DNA of 64,000 nt from Candidatus Poribacteria bacterium (lineage in GTDB: Bacteria; Poribacteria; WGA-4E; WGA-3G): assembly GCA_022824265.1 (NCBI GenBank), contig JAJEAG010000086.1, positions 1-64,000 on the forward strand. Reading direction: 5' to 3'. The notes beneath the pieces were generated by a model. It had not been told where the DNA came from, did no database searches, and saw only the letters and a list, made by a program, of their open reading frames with translations. This document shows positions 45,651 through 53,947 of this stretch, one piece after another. The position numbers and the translations under genes were made by a program. The first letter of the stretch is position 1, and each line of letters begins with the position of its first letter.

Positions 45651-46151
45651 CTACTTCTTTTCTAAAACCAGAAAACTGTAGGAATAAGGATTTTTCTCAT
45701 CCGCTTCACAATCTGTCCGTTTCACTTCTCTCCACGCATTCCAATCAAATTCAGGAAAATAAACATCTCCCTCAAACGTATCGTGAACCTGCGTCAGGTA
45801 AAGTCGAGTTGCGTACGGCAAAAACGCTGCGTAGATAGGCGCACCACCACATATCATAAGTTCCGTTGAATCATCGTACATTTCTCCAACAGTGGCAAGA
45901 ATGTCATCAACTGAATGAGCAACTATACAACCTTTCGGTGCCTTGTAGTTCTCATTACGTGTTAGAATTATGTTTCGCCGCTTAGCCAACGGACGAGGAA
46001 GCGTTTCAAAGGTTTTACGTCCCATCACGACAGGTTTGCCGATAGTCATCTCACGAAAGTGTTTAAGGTCAGCAGGCAATTTCCAAGGTATATGTGGTCC
46101 ATTACCAATAAGTCGGTTTTTATCTATCGCAGCAATCATTGAGATTTGCAC
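45651..46151 (-). CDS. folA: Dihydrofolate reductase
   Basis: Regenerates tetrahydrofolate, consumed as dihydrofolate by thymidylate synthase. The 166 residues start QISMIAAIDKNRLIGNGPHI and include IPWKLPADLKHFREMTIGKP, GRKTFETLP and ICGGAPIYAAFLP. The start is probably GTG at 46151, since family alignment needs the preceding residues. thyA lies 3.4 kb upstream on the same strand, separated by the lipoprotein cluster. Confidence 0.95.
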   Translation of the reverse strand: MQISMIAAIDKNRLIGNGPHIPWKLPADLKHFREMTIGKPVVMGRKTFETLPRPLAKRRNIILTRNENYKAPKGCIVAHSVDDILATVGEMYDDSTELMICGGAPIYAAFLPYATRLYLTQVHDTFEGDVYFPEFDWNAWREVKRTDCEADEKNPYSYSFLVLEKK

Positions 46152-46198: not shown

Positions 46199-46912
46199 TC
46201 AATCCTTTTTCTGTTTAGAGACCATTTTAAAATGGCTTATCCATCTAAGTTTATTTGAACTAAAACTACTGCCACCCCCGCTACCATCAAACTTCTCATG
46301 TGGCTCTACAAATTTTTGAATTGGAAACTTTCGTTTTTCGTTCTTATTAGCTCCAAACTCAAAATGTAACACACCGTCAACGAGTTTGAATCTTCCTCTT
46401 TGCTTAGTATCGGAATCACCATAATATTGATTAATTAAGTCGTGAAAACTAAGATTACCAAAATCTGTATTTTCAATAGAAAAATACACCATAAGCCAGT
46501 TGCTAGTACGGAAAATAGCGAACACTTCACGCTCTTTTAAACCTGTAGAAATTTTAGATGTTGCTAACGGTGGGTTAAATACACTTTGCGGGTTTTCTTC
46601 TTTAGTAAAATATAAAAGGGTTAACCCTCCTACCTTGTTTACCCCCCTGTATTCAATGCCTTTATCAGCGTCAATTAAGTCAAATGAAATCGGTAATTTC
46701 TGTTTTTCTTTACCGCTACCTCTATCAAATTCTATTGTCAACTGTTTAGGTGTAAGTTGCGCGCTGACTACTTTCCATTTTTCTGGCATACGAAGCCGAA
46801 CCGTACAGCGAACACCATTTCCAGTTATTCCTTCATACCGTAACTGTTCTTCAACTGCACAACTCATACACAGCAGTAAGAGACTAATAAAATAAACTAT
46901 CCGAATCTTCAT
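46199..46912 (-). CDS. Repeat-containing lipoprotein, family member 1
   Basis: A 237-residue lipoprotein with signal MKIRIVYFISLLLLCMSC (Cys18). It contains two similar beta-rich units. Unit 1 reads LTIEFDRGSGKEKQKLPISF and continues to GLTLLYFT. Unit 2 reads LHFEFGANKNEKRKFPIQKF followed by a Gly/Ser turn. In between, REVFAIFRTSNWLMVYFSIE is a conserved core. It is closely similar to the broken gene at 48803-49523 and distantly to the two genes between them. I do not recognise the family. ATG at 46912 begins a clean signal peptide. Confidence 0.65.
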   Translation of the reverse strand: MKIRIVYFISLLLLCMSCAVEEQLRYEGITGNGVRCTVRLRMPEKWKVVSAQLTPKQLTIEFDRGSGKEKQKLPISFDLIDADKGIEYRGVNKVGGLTLLYFTKEENPQSVFNPPLATSKISTGLKEREVFAIFRTSNWLMVYFSIENTDFGNLSFHDLINQYYGDSDTKQRGRFKLVDGVLHFEFGANKNEKRKFPIQKFVEPHEKFDGSGGGSSFSSNKLRWISHFKMVSKQKKD

Positions 46913-46947
46913 CTGATTGATCTCTGGGTTATTGCGAAATGGCAAGA

Positions 46948-47748
46948 TCAACGGTCTATCAAATTTGGATGCTCAGTCGGTAAGTTTCTCTGTGGATGAT
47001 CCTGCATCAGTTCATCCTTCTTCGGTATAACCTTCAAATGAGCAATAAAAATGTCATCACCTAATTTACTCTTATTTTCAACTTCAACTGTTTCATCAGG
47101 TTGTAAATCCTTTAGCAGAAATCGAAGATTCTGAATTGGCATATCAGAGTCATCAGTTTCTATTTCTAAAATTCTATTACCATCTGCATCACTCTCTACA
47201 TTATCAAATGTTACGGTGTCCGTAACTTCAACAGTTATTCCAAATTTTGAATATTTCCAAGACGATTTTCTGCTGTCTGGAATCATGCAGTAAGCGATTA
47301 TCCTATCCCTGTCCCGAAATGATCCAGAATTACCAAATGCCCCAGGTTTCTTTGATAAACCATTTACCTTTATACCACTCCAGGTAAACGACATAGAGAA
47401 TCTTCTTGGGTTAGGAGAAGTGACTGTGAATTGGACAATTCCATACCCGTTTATCCTGTCTGTACCGTGAATTTCAAGAGTTTCATCAGGTGCGATCAAC
47501 TTTCCCATAAACGACCGTTTCAATGAGATTTTTCGTTTCTCAATTTTTTCACCAGATTTAATATCAACAAGCAGTTCATTGTTTTCTATAAAGGTATCAA
47601 CAATCTCAGACTTCTCATTCAGAGCCAAAAAGACTAAAAGTGTGTCGTTATTCCTATGAATTTTGTGTCCAGGCGCAGGTCTACCACAACCATTAAGAAC
47701 TAATACAAGACTAACAAAAAGTGTAAATACACAATTTATTCTTACCAT
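46948..47748 (-). CDS. Repeat-containing lipoprotein, family member 2
   Basis: A 266-residue lipoprotein with lipobox VLNGC (Cys21). Two similar units can be seen: ISLKRSFMGKLIAPDETLEI near residues 73-92 and LRFLLKDLQPDETVEVENK near 210-228, each placing DET before a Glu-rich strand. This matches the unit plan of its neighbours, although overall identity is low. It ends 36 bases before member 1. The function is unknown. Confidence 0.6.
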   Translation of the reverse strand: MVRINCVFTLFVSLVLVLNGCGRPAPGHKIHRNNDTLLVFLALNEKSEIVDTFIENNELLVDIKSGEKIEKRKISLKRSFMGKLIAPDETLEIHGTDRINGYGIVQFTVTSPNPRRFSMSFTWSGIKVNGLSKKPGAFGNSGSFRDRDRIIAYCMIPDSRKSSWKYSKFGITVEVTDTVTFDNVESDADGNRILEIETDDSDMPIQNLRFLLKDLQPDETVEVENKSKLGDDIFIAHLKVIPKKDELMQDHPQRNLPTEHPNLIDR

Positions 47749-47871
47749 GATATTTCACCATACTAAAGTTTAAACGATTTTGTCAGTTTCATGATGATTT
47801 GATGCCTCTTACACCCAACCCAAATGGGAAAATCATTTATAGAATTGGTATTACCTGATAAGAAACCTCTT

Positions 47872-47917
47872 ATCCTGCAAATCCTGTCTATCCTGAAAAT
47901 CCTGGTTCAGACAAAAT
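47872..47917. repeat. Dispersed CAGGAT-type repeat, copy 2
   Basis: This is the reverse complement of the element at 564-599, with an additional CTGTCTATC unit. It lies in the 188-base gap between two lipoprotein genes. Confidence 0.6.
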
Positions 47918-47936
47918 GAGACGATTTAGAATTAAT

Positions 47937-48665
47937 TCAAAATCTACCATCGTTCACAGAAGCAATATGAAAAATAGAACCCATGACAACTCTTGACGCA
48001 ATCAACAAACCTATACCATTATTTTCAACTTCTTCATTGGCATTTACGATTTTTCCAAGTGGAAAACTATGTTTTATTATACGGGTCCCTGTGTTAAATT
48101 CCACATTAAATGCATTATCAGTGAAATCAAAACGGTCAATTGGAACATCGGAGATATGCTGAAAATCAATGTCCTTAGGTTCAACAGACAACACAAGAGA
48201 TAACCTGTTTTCACTTCGGAAGGCTCTAAACTTCAAGCGATCCCCGTCGCGTGTCTTATAGTTTTCAGAGAGGATACGTCCATTAGGAAAGTGTTGGGGT
48301 TGACGTTCCAATAGGTTTGTCTTTTGGAATTGAAGAATAACCGTGTCTTCTACTTTTCCAACACCCGTGAGTAACAAGTTTTCGGTAGATTCTGCAAGCT
48401 GCATAGAATCATTACCCGTATGCATTGCATTTTCAACAATTTCAACTGTTGTGGTTTCAATGCCGCGTTTTGTTTGATTGATTTCTATGTTGAGTCCCGT
48501 AACAGTGGTTTCTACATTTACGGATTCAACCTCACTTTGCATTATCAAAGATACCGATATGAAGTTACCATGTCCGAAACTTGCCACATCAGCAAAAGGG
48601 TTAGTATCTGTCGGTTCGCAGCTTATAAGCGATATTGCAATAAGTATCGTAAAGATTATCCGCAT
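47937..48665 (-). CDS. Repeat-containing lipoprotein, family member 3
   Basis: A 242-residue lipoprotein with signal MRIIFTILIAISLISC (Cys16). The core LKFRAFRSENRLSLVLSVEP aligns with FAIFRTSNWLMVYFSIEN of member 1, and KHSFPLGKIVNANEEVENNG aligns with its RKFPIQKFVEPHEKFDGSG. It is preceded 15 bases upstream by a decayed copy of the thyA 3' end, just as the broken member 4 is preceded by the real thyA. The function is unknown. Confidence 0.62.
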   Translation of the reverse strand: MRIIFTILIAISLISCEPTDTNPFADVASFGHGNFISVSLIMQSEVESVNVETTVTGLNIEINQTKRGIETTTVEIVENAMHTGNDSMQLAESTENLLLTGVGKVEDTVILQFQKTNLLERQPQHFPNGRILSENYKTRDGDRLKFRAFRSENRLSLVLSVEPKDIDFQHISDVPIDRFDFTDNAFNVEFNTGTRIIKHSFPLGKIVNANEEVENNGIGLLIASRVVMGSIFHIASVNDGRF

Positions 48666-48680
48666 CTTCTTTTTTTTCAG

Positions 48681-48785
48681 ACAATCATCTTTGCACGAAT
48701 AACATCGTGATGCTGATAGTCATTTACCACATTTCTTGGATTTTATATTTATCAATAGGTGTTACATAAGGGTTCTGAATGAATT
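48681..48785 (-). pseudogene. Decayed duplicate of the thyA 3' end
   Basis: About 105 bases align to the last 35 codons of thyA (49541-49645). In one frame FIQNPYV...IDKYKIQEM corresponds to FLNPNVSSIDNFKIQDM; in another, NDYQHHDVIRAKMIV corresponds to KDYQHHDVIRAKMIV and ends at a stop. The frame breaks between the two. This fixes the left edge of a tandem duplication that also carried a lipoprotein gene. Confidence 0.85.
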
Positions 48786-48802
48786 CTTACTATCATATTC
48801 CA

Positions 48803-49523
48803 TCAATCTTTTTTCAGTTTAGGAATTATTTTATAGTTTTCTGTCCAACTAAGCAAATTATCTCTGACATTACTACCGCCACCACTATCCCAAAAATCTT
48901 CATTAGGTGAAACAAATTTCTGAATAGGAAAACTACGTTTTACTTTGTTATTTAGAGCAATTTTAAAATGTAACACATCATCTATGACTTCTAAATTAAT
49001 CCGATTCCCTGGAGCGATTTTTGCCTTTTTGAAATAATGCTGACGTAGGTCATGAGAAATAAGATTACCGAAAGAGGTATTTTCTATTGAGTAATGTACC
49101 GTTAACCAGTTACTTGTCCGAAAAATTGCAAATACCTCGCGTACTTTTTAAACCTTCGTTTATGCTGGTTTTAGCCAATGGCGGGTTGAACACACTCTGA
49201 GGATCTTCTTCATTCGTAAAATGCAGAAGAGATAATCCTTCTATTCTATTTGCACCCCTGAATTGAAGACTCTCATCATTAGCAACAAATCTGCATATTA
49301 GTGGGAAATGCTGTTTCTCTACGCCTATACCTCTATCATATTCTAAGACCAACTCTTCCGTATTGAGTTGCGCATTCACAATTTCCCAGCGATCCGGCAT
49401 ACACACACGAACGGTACACTTCCCAACATTACCGATGATCCCATCATAACTAAACTGTAGATCTACTGCGCAACTAATAAACAGCAATAAGAGACTGATG
49501 ATCAATGCTAACTGAGTTTTCAT
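48803..49523 (-). pseudogene. Repeat-containing lipoprotein, family member 4, frameshifted
   Basis: The first part (MKTQLALIISLLLLFISC signal, then about 135 codons) runs out of frame near 49145. The next frame continues at once with REVFAIFRTSNWLTVHYSIE and ends PKLKKD, matching member 1 to its last residues (PKQKKD-like). Removing one base from the AAAAA run (T5 at 49145-49149 on the plus strand) restores a full-length protein of about 240 residues. It is therefore either a recent pseudogene, a sequencing error or a slippage site. It starts 12 bases after thyA. Confidence 0.85.
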
Positions 49524-49535
49524 CTCAGTCTTCTC

Positions 49536-50333
49536 CTATACAATCATTTTCGCACGAATAACATCATGATGCTGATAATCCTTTAAATGCATGTCTTGAA
49601 TTTTGAAGTTATCAATAGACGACACATTCGGGTTCAAGAAAAGTTTCGGAAGTGGGTAGGGTTGCCTCTGAAGTTGGGTTTTTACCTGATCAAAATGCTC
49701 GTGATAGATGTGTGCATCCCCCAAAACATGGATAAATTCACTTGGTTCAAGATCCGTGACTTGTGCCACCATAGAAAGAAGCAGGGAATAGGATGCAATA
49801 TTAAATGGAACACCAAGGAACATATCACAACTACGTTGATACATCTGCAAGGACAACTTGCCATCTGCTACAAAAAACTGAAAAAACATGTGACACGGTG
49901 CTAATGCCATATGATCTAATTCAGCAGGATTCCATGCTGTGACAACATGCCTACGACTGTTCGGACAAGACTTTATCTGTTCAATCACATCCGCCAGTTG
50001 GTCAATTCTACCATCCTCTTTACGCCATCTACGCCACTGTACCCCGTAAATACAGCCGAGAGCCCCGTCACGACCCCACGCAGCAGCGTTCGCATTCCAT
50101 ATCTGCGTGCCAAGATTCTGAAACTGTTTAACATGATCAAAACCACGTATAAAACCCAGAAGTTCAGCTTTTACAGATCGAAACGCAAGTTTCTTTGTCG
50201 TTACCGCAGGAAAACCATCTTCGAGATTATATCGCATTTGCATGCCGAAGAGAGCGCGTGTCTTACCATTTCTACCCTCGCGGTCAACCCCAGCATCTAA
50301 TATCTGTTGAAGTCCTTCAAGATACTGTTTCAT
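49536..50333 (-). CDS. thyA: Thymidylate synthase
   Basis: Methylates dUMP to dTMP using methylene-tetrahydrofolate. The 265 residues include RTGT-equivalent GKTRALFG, the catalytic Cys147 in LAPCHMFFQFF, RSCDMFLGVPFNIASY and GDAHIYHEHFDQV. ATG at 50333 is used; an upstream TTG directly abuts GGGAG and is unlikely. dut (supplying dUMP) lies 66 bases upstream and folA downstream, so this is a dTMP-synthesis unit interrupted by lipoproteins. Confidence 0.96.
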   Translation of the reverse strand: MKQYLEGLQQILDAGVDREGRNGKTRALFGMQMRYNLEDGFPAVTTKKLAFRSVKAELLGFIRGFDHVKQFQNLGTQIWNANAAAWGRDGALGCIYGVQWRRWRKEDGRIDQLADVIEQIKSCPNSRRHVVTAWNPAELDHMALAPCHMFFQFFVADGKLSLQMYQRSCDMFLGVPFNIASYSLLLSMVAQVTDLEPSEFIHVLGDAHIYHEHFDQVKTQLQRQPYPLPKLFLNPNVSSIDNFKIQDMHLKDYQHHDVIRAKMIV

Positions 50334-50399
50334 TTTTATTATCAACTCCCAGTTAGGGTAATTTAGTTTTCAATAAATACGAATTTCAGGAATATAAAG

Positions 50400-50831
50400 T
50401 TACCGATCAGTACTACCAAAGCCACCACGAGAAGACTCTGTCATCTCCTCTACCTCTTGCCATTCTACAGTCGCAACACGAACAAAAATCGCTTGCGCGA
50501 TTCGACTACCCCTTTCAATCGTAACAATTTCATCGGTGAAATTGTAAGCTTGGATCTTTATCTCATCTTCTTCACCGCAGTAATCATTATCTATAATACC
50601 GACACTTTGTGCCATCATCAATCCAAATTTACGCGGGGTGCTACTCCGCATACATAACATCAACATATAACCCGGTGGTGTTTCCACAATCACATTCGCT
50701 GGAATTAAGACTATTTCACCAGGAGCAACTTCCGCAGATTCCCGGCATAGCAAATCAAACCCTACAGACCCTTCAGTTTCGTATTTAGGCAATGGAAGCG
50801 ATTTATCCACTCTCTTAATCTTTACATTCAT
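50400..50831 (-). CDS. dut: dUTP diphosphatase
   Basis: Hydrolyses dUTP to dUMP, preventing uracil incorporation and feeding thymidylate synthase. The 143-residue trimeric-type enzyme shows the five motifs: GSVGFDLLC, MRSSTPRK, GIIDNDYCGE with the catalytic Asp, RIAQAIF and SSRGGFGSTD. The third motif has extra acidic residues (EEDEIKI) compared with the common GEIKV form. Its ATG overlaps the stop of the SMP-30 gene by one base. Confidence 0.93.
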   Translation of the reverse strand: MNVKIKRVDKSLPLPKYETEGSVGFDLLCRESAEVAPGEIVLIPANVIVETPPGYMLMLCMRSSTPRKFGLMMAQSVGIIDNDYCGEEDEIKIQAYNFTDEIVTIERGSRIAQAIFVRVATVEWQEVEEMTESSRGGFGSTDR

Positions 50832-52801: not shown

Positions 52802-53947
52802 ATGCATAAATCACAGCAAACATCTTTTAGTAGCACAATAAAACGTGCATTGTCAATATTTGGAATTGTCATTTTACTGTTCGCCTACGCACCCGAAGAC
52901 GTAGAAAGCCGCCGCAGTTTCGGAGGACGTAGTTTCAGTCGTAGCTTTAGCCGCAGTTCAAGTCGCAGCTACAGCCGCAGTACAAAAAGTTACACAGCAC
53001 CAAAACGCACATCCAGCAGTTCACGCTCTACCAGCTCAAGAAGCACTTACACAAAACCACGCACTTCTACCTCAACACGAAGCACAGGGAGTAGTTACGG
53101 TGGAAGTCGCACATCAAGAACAACTTCAACTCGTCCAAGTTCAACTGCTCGCCAGAAACAGACATCAACCAATCGTGCAAAGACAACGAACACGTCATCA
53201 ACACGTAACGCTACTGCTACACGAGGTCAACAAAAAGCAACCACGGCACAAAGCAGAAAACAGGTGCGCCAACTAAAAGCGGAAAACCGCAGCTTGAAAC
53301 GTAAAGTTACGACTGCAAACCGACAAACTGCAAGTGCTCGCAGACAACAACGTCAAACCATCACAGTCAACAACTATCGCACGTTCTATAATCCCTATCC
53401 AACCTATTCATTATACAGTTTACAAGCATCTATGGCGTTTAATAACCTGATGTTCGGACTCTATTTCCATGACTACTACAACCATGCAATCCGACGTAGT
53501 TATCTATGGCACTATCACCATCCAAACTACGACAGGCAACATTGGACTGATGAAAAACAGAAAGAGTACGAATTTTACAAAGATTACTATGAAAATCAGG
53601 GAATTGTACCTAACGAAAACTATGTAGACCCCGGAACAAATCGAGATGAAGACTTCGTCGCCAGTTACGTTGAAGAGAATCCTGATAAATTCTACGGAGA
53701 CAACGTAGAGGTAGTCACAGTTGAAGAACTACCAGATGAAGAGGCAATCAAACAAGAACTCCTCGCAACTGCCGAAACGCCAACCGTAACATCCAATACG
53801 CAACGTGCACCACCACAACAACCTGTCCAGCAAAAGGTTGTCGTAGTAAAGAAATCCTCAGGTGTAACATGGTTCATACTCATATTCTGCAGTCTTCTTA
53901 TCGTTGGTGGAATCATGTTAGTATTGTATAACAAAGGGTATTTTTAG
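52802..53947 (+). CDS. Ser/Arg/Thr-rich membrane protein
   Basis: A 381-residue protein anchored at both ends. A hydrophobic segment at residues 15-31 is followed by a low-complexity Ser/Arg/Thr stretch (about 36-165) with SFSRSFSRSSSRSYSRS-like repeats, a basic coiled-coil-like part, a Tyr/His-rich domain (about 205-275), an acidic part, and a C-terminal membrane helix (WFILIFCSLLIVGGIMLVLY). AAGGAGGA lies upstream. The next gene starts eight bases after its stop, so they form a pair. Similar RSF/SRS-rich membrane proteins occur beside DUF4178-type genes, but I cannot name the family. Confidence 0.6.
   Translation: MHKSQQTSFSSTIKRALSIFGIVILLFAYAPEDVESRRSFGGRSFSRSFSRSSSRSYSRSTKSYTAPKRTSSSSRSTSSRSTYTKPRTSTSTRSTGSSYGGSRTSRTTSTRPSSTARQKQTSTNRAKTTNTSSTRNATATRGQQKATTAQSRKQVRQLKAENRSLKRKVTTANRQTASARRQQRQTITVNNYRTFYNPYPTYSLYSLQASMAFNNLMFGLYFHDYYNHAIRRSYLWHYHHPNYDRQHWTDEKQKEYEFYKDYYENQGIVPNENYVDPGTNRDEDFVASYVEENPDKFYGDNVEVVTVEELPDEEAIKQELLATAETPTVTSNTQRAPPQQPVQQKVVVVKKSSGVTWFILIFCSLLIVGGIMLVLYNKGYF

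Follow-up and report, generated by a model that had tools for sequence, protein, structure and literature searches.

The region between thyA and folA in the window, which is the whole 64,000-nucleotide stretch of Candidatus Poribacteria DNA that was analysed, carries four consecutive genes of one lipoprotein family whose members are built from a duplicated β unit. Our explanation is that these genes encode paralogous envelope lipoproteins and form a tandem array at a fixed site next to thyA, that the array has been remodelled by recombination, and that its products probably bind a varying partner and play no role in dTMP synthesis. Taken as a whole, we give this explanation about an even chance of being right. 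The genome to which the window belongs is 4.45 Mb in size, and the relatives used for comparison are Candidatus Poribacteria MAGs. On the minus strand the locus reads dut, thyA, A', a thyA relic, C, B, A and folA, with the features located as follows:

45651-46151, minus strand: folA (dihydrofolate reductase), the conserved flank 3' of the array; Pfam DHFR_1, E 1.7e-61
46199-46912, minus strand: A (member 1), a lipoprotein of 237 aa with units at residues ~25-103 and ~127-232; no family match
46948-47748, minus strand: B (member 2), a lipoprotein of 266 aa with the unit twice; N-unit profile link to A of 97.9%
47937-48665, minus strand: C (member 3), a lipoprotein of 242 aa; profile link to A of 92.6%
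48681-48776, minus strand: relic of the thyA 3' end, 96 bp, directly upstream of C; blastn E 3e-17, repeats D2 and D3
48803-49523, minus strand: A' (member 4), a broken paralogue of A, with identity to both halves of A
49536-50345, minus strand: thyA (thymidylate synthase), the conserved flank 5' of the array; Pfam Thymidylat_synt, E 2e-104
50400-50831, minus strand: dut (dUTPase); Pfam dUTPase, E 3.6e-22

An earlier note on this DNA had claimed that four related lipoprotein genes separate folA from thyA, and the analysis bore this out, as all four lie on the minus strand and are homologous by BLAST and profile comparison. The reading frames of A, B and C are intact. A TTG at 46951 had been proposed as the start of A; this was corrected to the ATG at 46912 because homologues of A start there. 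Member 4 had been taken for a whole gene of 137 aa (49523-49110), which turned out to be only the front part of a full-length copy, the remainder of A' lying in another frame (49150-48806). The front part is 50-52% identical to its half of A (member 1) and the rear part, in the other frame, 53% identical to its half; member 4 was accordingly identified as a frameshifted paralogue of A. The +1 frameshift lies near 49131-49150, where A' reads TTTTT and A reads TTTT, and it could be a sequencing error.

Start codons were mostly found ~10-40 bp past the thyA stop codon, and the number of promoter-like sites was equal to chance. A repeat, CAGGATTTTCAGGAT / CAGGATTTGCAGGAT, was observed at 576-599 and 47872-47904, with four occurrences vs 0.15 expected; one pair falls inside the 188 bp that separate C from B, and the element is possibly a dispersed intergenic repeat. 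On the plus strand, positions 52802-53947 hold an ORF of 381 aa with a Ser/Arg-rich start (RSFGGRSFSRSFSRSSSRS...) and a likely membrane helix at its end.

Judged by sequence, each protein carries a signal peptide, and a lipobox-like Cys is present in nearly all copies. The Cys is invariant in the 14 A copies and present in all B copies but one, having been lost from B of G015, while the lipobox of type A is non-canonical, with Cys or Phe at position -3. The proteins are probably exported and lipidated. Under the enterobacterial sorting rule, lipoproteins without Asp at position +2 go to the outer membrane. Asp at +2 occurred in none of the 62 sequences with a lipobox-like site, and this rule would therefore indicate the outer membrane.

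The repeated unit had been expected twice in at least members 1 and 2, and it was found twice in all four, with both frames of A' read. It is a β unit of ~90 residues, represented in member 1 by EFDRGSGKEKQKLPISFDLIDADKGIEYRG and EFGANKNEKRKFPIQKFVEPHEKFDGSGG. Profile comparison matched the N-unit to the C-unit at 97.0% for the B and D types together (P 8e-11) and at 95.9% for the D type, which belongs to the sister genus, and matched the C-unit of A to the N-unit of B/D at 96.0%; 0 of 100 shuffles reached the N/C profile scores. The two units of A gave no direct profile match to each other, and the link between the N- and C-units of C was weaker (68% at best). The N/C match became clear only after the sister-genus sequences were added, the previous comparison having used few sequences. 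The alignments revealed a unit pattern running roughly from an FRsgD-xItvYw hairpin through L-L-I-tGe, a charged EkqxLpI strand and vepHEtLeI-G to a last hydrophobic strand, and the EF, basic and acidic-Gly steps of the earlier note are contained in it. Structure prediction, which that note had put forward as a check, displayed the repeated strand series as well. The AlphaFold2 model of A, run on 16 sequences, presents the series twice (pLDDT 86, pTM 0.83), and the less confident model of B (pLDDT 66) orders its strands in a similar way; read from their strand order, the predicted models show a structural repeat in A and B.

A, B and C are homologous to one another and to type D of the sister genus, the N-units of A and B being joined at 97.9% and A and C at 92.6% by profile comparison. 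It had been suggested that they belong to no named family, and searches against Pfam, NCBIfam, PHROGs and PADLOC agreed, with only weak sub-threshold matches and none of note. No homology to the staphylococcal tandem-lipoprotein family was detected in Pfam or NCBIfam. The PDB sequence search returned no match for A and chance-level matches for B, none of them trustworthy, and Foldseek returned nothing significant for A or B, also among viral models. A viral origin was rejected, as no relative was present among viral contigs. The best reading is an unnamed lipoprotein family, found in one Poribacteria family and not described before.

The type D profile detected the family in 43 of the 85 genomes of the phylum, all within one Poribacteria family. 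A survey of the folA-thyA spacing in relatives, also recommended in the earlier note, located the genes at the same site in 17/17 genomes of the window's genus with a readable locus, at 1-4 copies each, and in 24/37 genomes of the sister genus, g2. The order thyA-C-B-A-folA is kept in the window's genus, and genomes often lack one or two of the three types. The window is the exception in its genus, as here A' adjoins thyA; in five relatives, the gene immediately following thyA is a C gene 75-87% identical to the window's C. Among the 37 g2 genomes in which thyA was found, 24 hold at least one intact copy 3' of thyA, 11 hold none and two hold a relic only, and the g2 copies lie within the stretch up to folA, save for a few contig-edge cases. 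Two D copies of the sister genus do not adjoin thyA in the DNA examined (G074, at a contig edge, and G060), and no further copies were found elsewhere in the window's genome. In 11 g2 genomes, and likewise in genus g3, thyA and folA are present but no lipoprotein gene separates them; the gene is therefore dispensable in those g2 genomes. Relics of lipoprotein genes were observed in G020, G068 and G081, two fragments remaining in G020 (genus g4); the window, G007 and G080 contain broken copies.

The flanking order SMP30-dut-thyA-...-folA-thuA-nagA-rpsL is old. In most g2, g3 and g4 genomes, a protein of ~170 aa with weak winged-helix matches is encoded before folA (L049:6281-6799; L065, L066, L110); no named family reached the cut-off for this protein, and its gene was not found in any member of the window's genus. 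As the winged-helix-like gene precedes folA in g2, g3 and g4, the thyA-folA spacer predates the array. The array had been described as embedded in the folA-thyA unit. This holds for its location, but not for a functional dTMP link, in view of the old spacer, the unrelated winged-helix-like gene and the 11 genomes without a lipoprotein. Further observations were made on individual genomes. In G080 (L118:6616-10370), decaying B-type copies, some of them broken, and one intact D-type copy lie between thyA and the winged-helix-like gene. In G009 (L036:3341-5451), thuA is split in an insertion-like manner, residues 1-70 and 68-208 being ~1.5 kb apart, and another contig of G019 (L067) carries an additional thyA that shares 53% identity with the window's copy and has no dut or folA nearby.

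A, B and C change several times faster than the neighbouring genes, yet under purifying selection. Their dN/dS was 0.20-0.47 in all computed pairs but one, C of G004/G005 (0.76 at a dS of 0.05), compared with 0.02-0.18 for dut, thyA, folA and thuA. Ratios below 1 do not directly demonstrate diversifying selection. The gene trees were discordant. The dut+thyA tree groups the window with G009 at a support of only 87/71, and the A tree groups it with G002 at 100/100. Between the window and G009, dS was 0.14-0.25 in SMP30, dut, thyA and folA and 1.05 in A; between the window and G002, the dS of A was 0.26, below all other genes of the pair (0.40-1.21). In the B tree, G005 is placed with G017 and G003 and apart from its sister G004. 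The discordance of A and B favours cross-species exchange over the sorting of old paralogues, and both may act. Old paralogues sorted by differential loss would be in keeping with the two deep A groups that coexist within G010 and G016 and with the frequent loss of lipoprotein copies, but this is improbable, because such sorting would not give A a dS below that of all other genes of the window/G002 pair.

The thyA relic offers a possible trace of such an event. It is 79% identical to the 3' end of the window's thyA, and its last 48 nt, stop included, are like the intact thyA end of G009 at 44/48 positions and like the window's thyA at 39/48. The spacer between the relic and C also resembles the thyA-C junction of G009. 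Over thyA positions 595-749 (155 bp), the window and G009 have the same sequence, and five differences follow in the last 49 bp. Incoming DNA with a thyA end and A' may have recombined inside the thyA 3' end, and the old thyA end would have been displaced and left as a relic before C. The relic may thus mark the arrival of A' by recombination, a reading that is suggestive only, because the informative sites are few. A mobile cassette or integrating element at thyA was also considered; the thyA-end relic is on one side only, and this candidate was set aside because no integrase lies between thyA and folA and there is no second end. There is a small chance that incoming lipoprotein cassettes dock at the thyA 3' end, each bringing its own thyA tail, so that thyA is restored and the old tail is left as a scar. 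If this were true, the site would act as a ratchet that renews surface lipoproteins without harm to thyA.

In the recombining array that we propose, copies and alleles would enter when incoming DNA undergoes homologous recombination with either the conserved flanks or sibling copies, thyA and folA being the shared homology arms and the source of transcription. The lipoproteins would be made from the thyA transcript, exported, lipidated and then sent to the outer membrane, and their two β units would bind a partner that differs between lineages, whether sponge host, neighbour, phage or nutrient. Binding of a varying partner is our best inference, because the fast but constrained evolution, the kept fold, the copy turnover and the apparent exchange resemble those of recombining surface-lipoprotein arrays. 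The turnover could also be that of envelope lipoproteins under weak constraint and in part dispensable: copies would arise by duplication, drift and decay with no changing partner behind them, and their position next to thyA would be inherited gene order. The losses and relics in g2 and g4 and the broken copies agree with such drift, as does dN/dS, which stays under 0.5 for most pairs and gives no hint of positive selection, but at least one copy is retained in 17/17 readable genomes of the window's genus, and the apparent allele exchange and conserved fold motifs also speak against it; we consider it possible, although unlikely.

It is highly doubtful that the proteins are envelope chaperones made of two p23- or small-heat-shock-like sandwiches. 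The idea arises from a weak one-domain resemblance to p23 and small heat-shock (HSP20) proteins that recurred in Foldseek (probability 0.84 for 4zja, 0.96 for the p23 structure 1ejf, 0.92 for 3w1z and 0.99 for a phage IbpA), but these matches over one unit had E-values of ~0.03-0.2, none below 0.03, and TM-scores of 0.4-0.5 at best. There is no sequence similarity to p23/HSP20, with no Pfam hit to an HSP20 or CS profile in A, B or C. The p23/HSP20 β-sandwich is the nearest recurring single-domain fold resemblance, not a significant one, and the present proteins differ from it in their predicted lipid anchor and in the unit duplicated within one chain. A role in dTMP or folate metabolism, for example the envelope capture of a nucleoside or folate, would fit the lasting linkage to thyA and the starts close behind its stop. 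Such a role is nevertheless extremely unlikely, since thyA and folA persist whether or not the lipoproteins are present; both genes are intact and the lipoproteins absent in 11 sister-genus genomes and in g3. Their dS and trees are also uncoupled from thyA, and the other neighbours, nagA, thuA, SMP30 and rpsL, are unrelated to dTMP.

Factor H binding protein of meningococci is a lipoprotein of two β domains. It occurs in divergent variant groups (PMC3731240), and the present family is similar to it as a two-β-domain lipoprotein with divergent variants, but is built from two like units and has no sequence similarity to it; the comparison of B with 8bk2 gave a chance-level fold match (probability 0.16). 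In Staphylococcus aureus, the copy number of csa1 changes by recombination (PMC7360770). The array resembles staphylococcal csa1/lpl (PMC7360770, PMC4470592) in its head-to-tail paralogous lipoprotein genes of 240-270 codons, held at a fixed place in varying copy number. We found adjacent, co-oriented homologues, each with a signal peptide and a lipobox Cys as read from the sequence, at 1-4 copies between species. In contrast to csa1/lpl, the array belongs to another phylum, occupies the thyA-folA site and matches neither that family nor any other in Pfam, and its copy variation was seen between species of one genus and not within a strain. The array belongs to the known kind of tandem paralogous lipoproteins, with a well-defined address and an unusual scar.

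The results present a taxonomically narrow family whose unit is duplicated and whose genomic address is fixed; its carriers are uncultured bacteria encountered chiefly in marine sponges. Primers for the conserved flanking genes thyA and folA can amplify the array from samples, and the match of alleles to host species, phage or geography is therefore directly testable. If the alleles follow host, phage or geography, the array would give access to the recognition of hosts or phages in Poribacteria, for which there is no culture.
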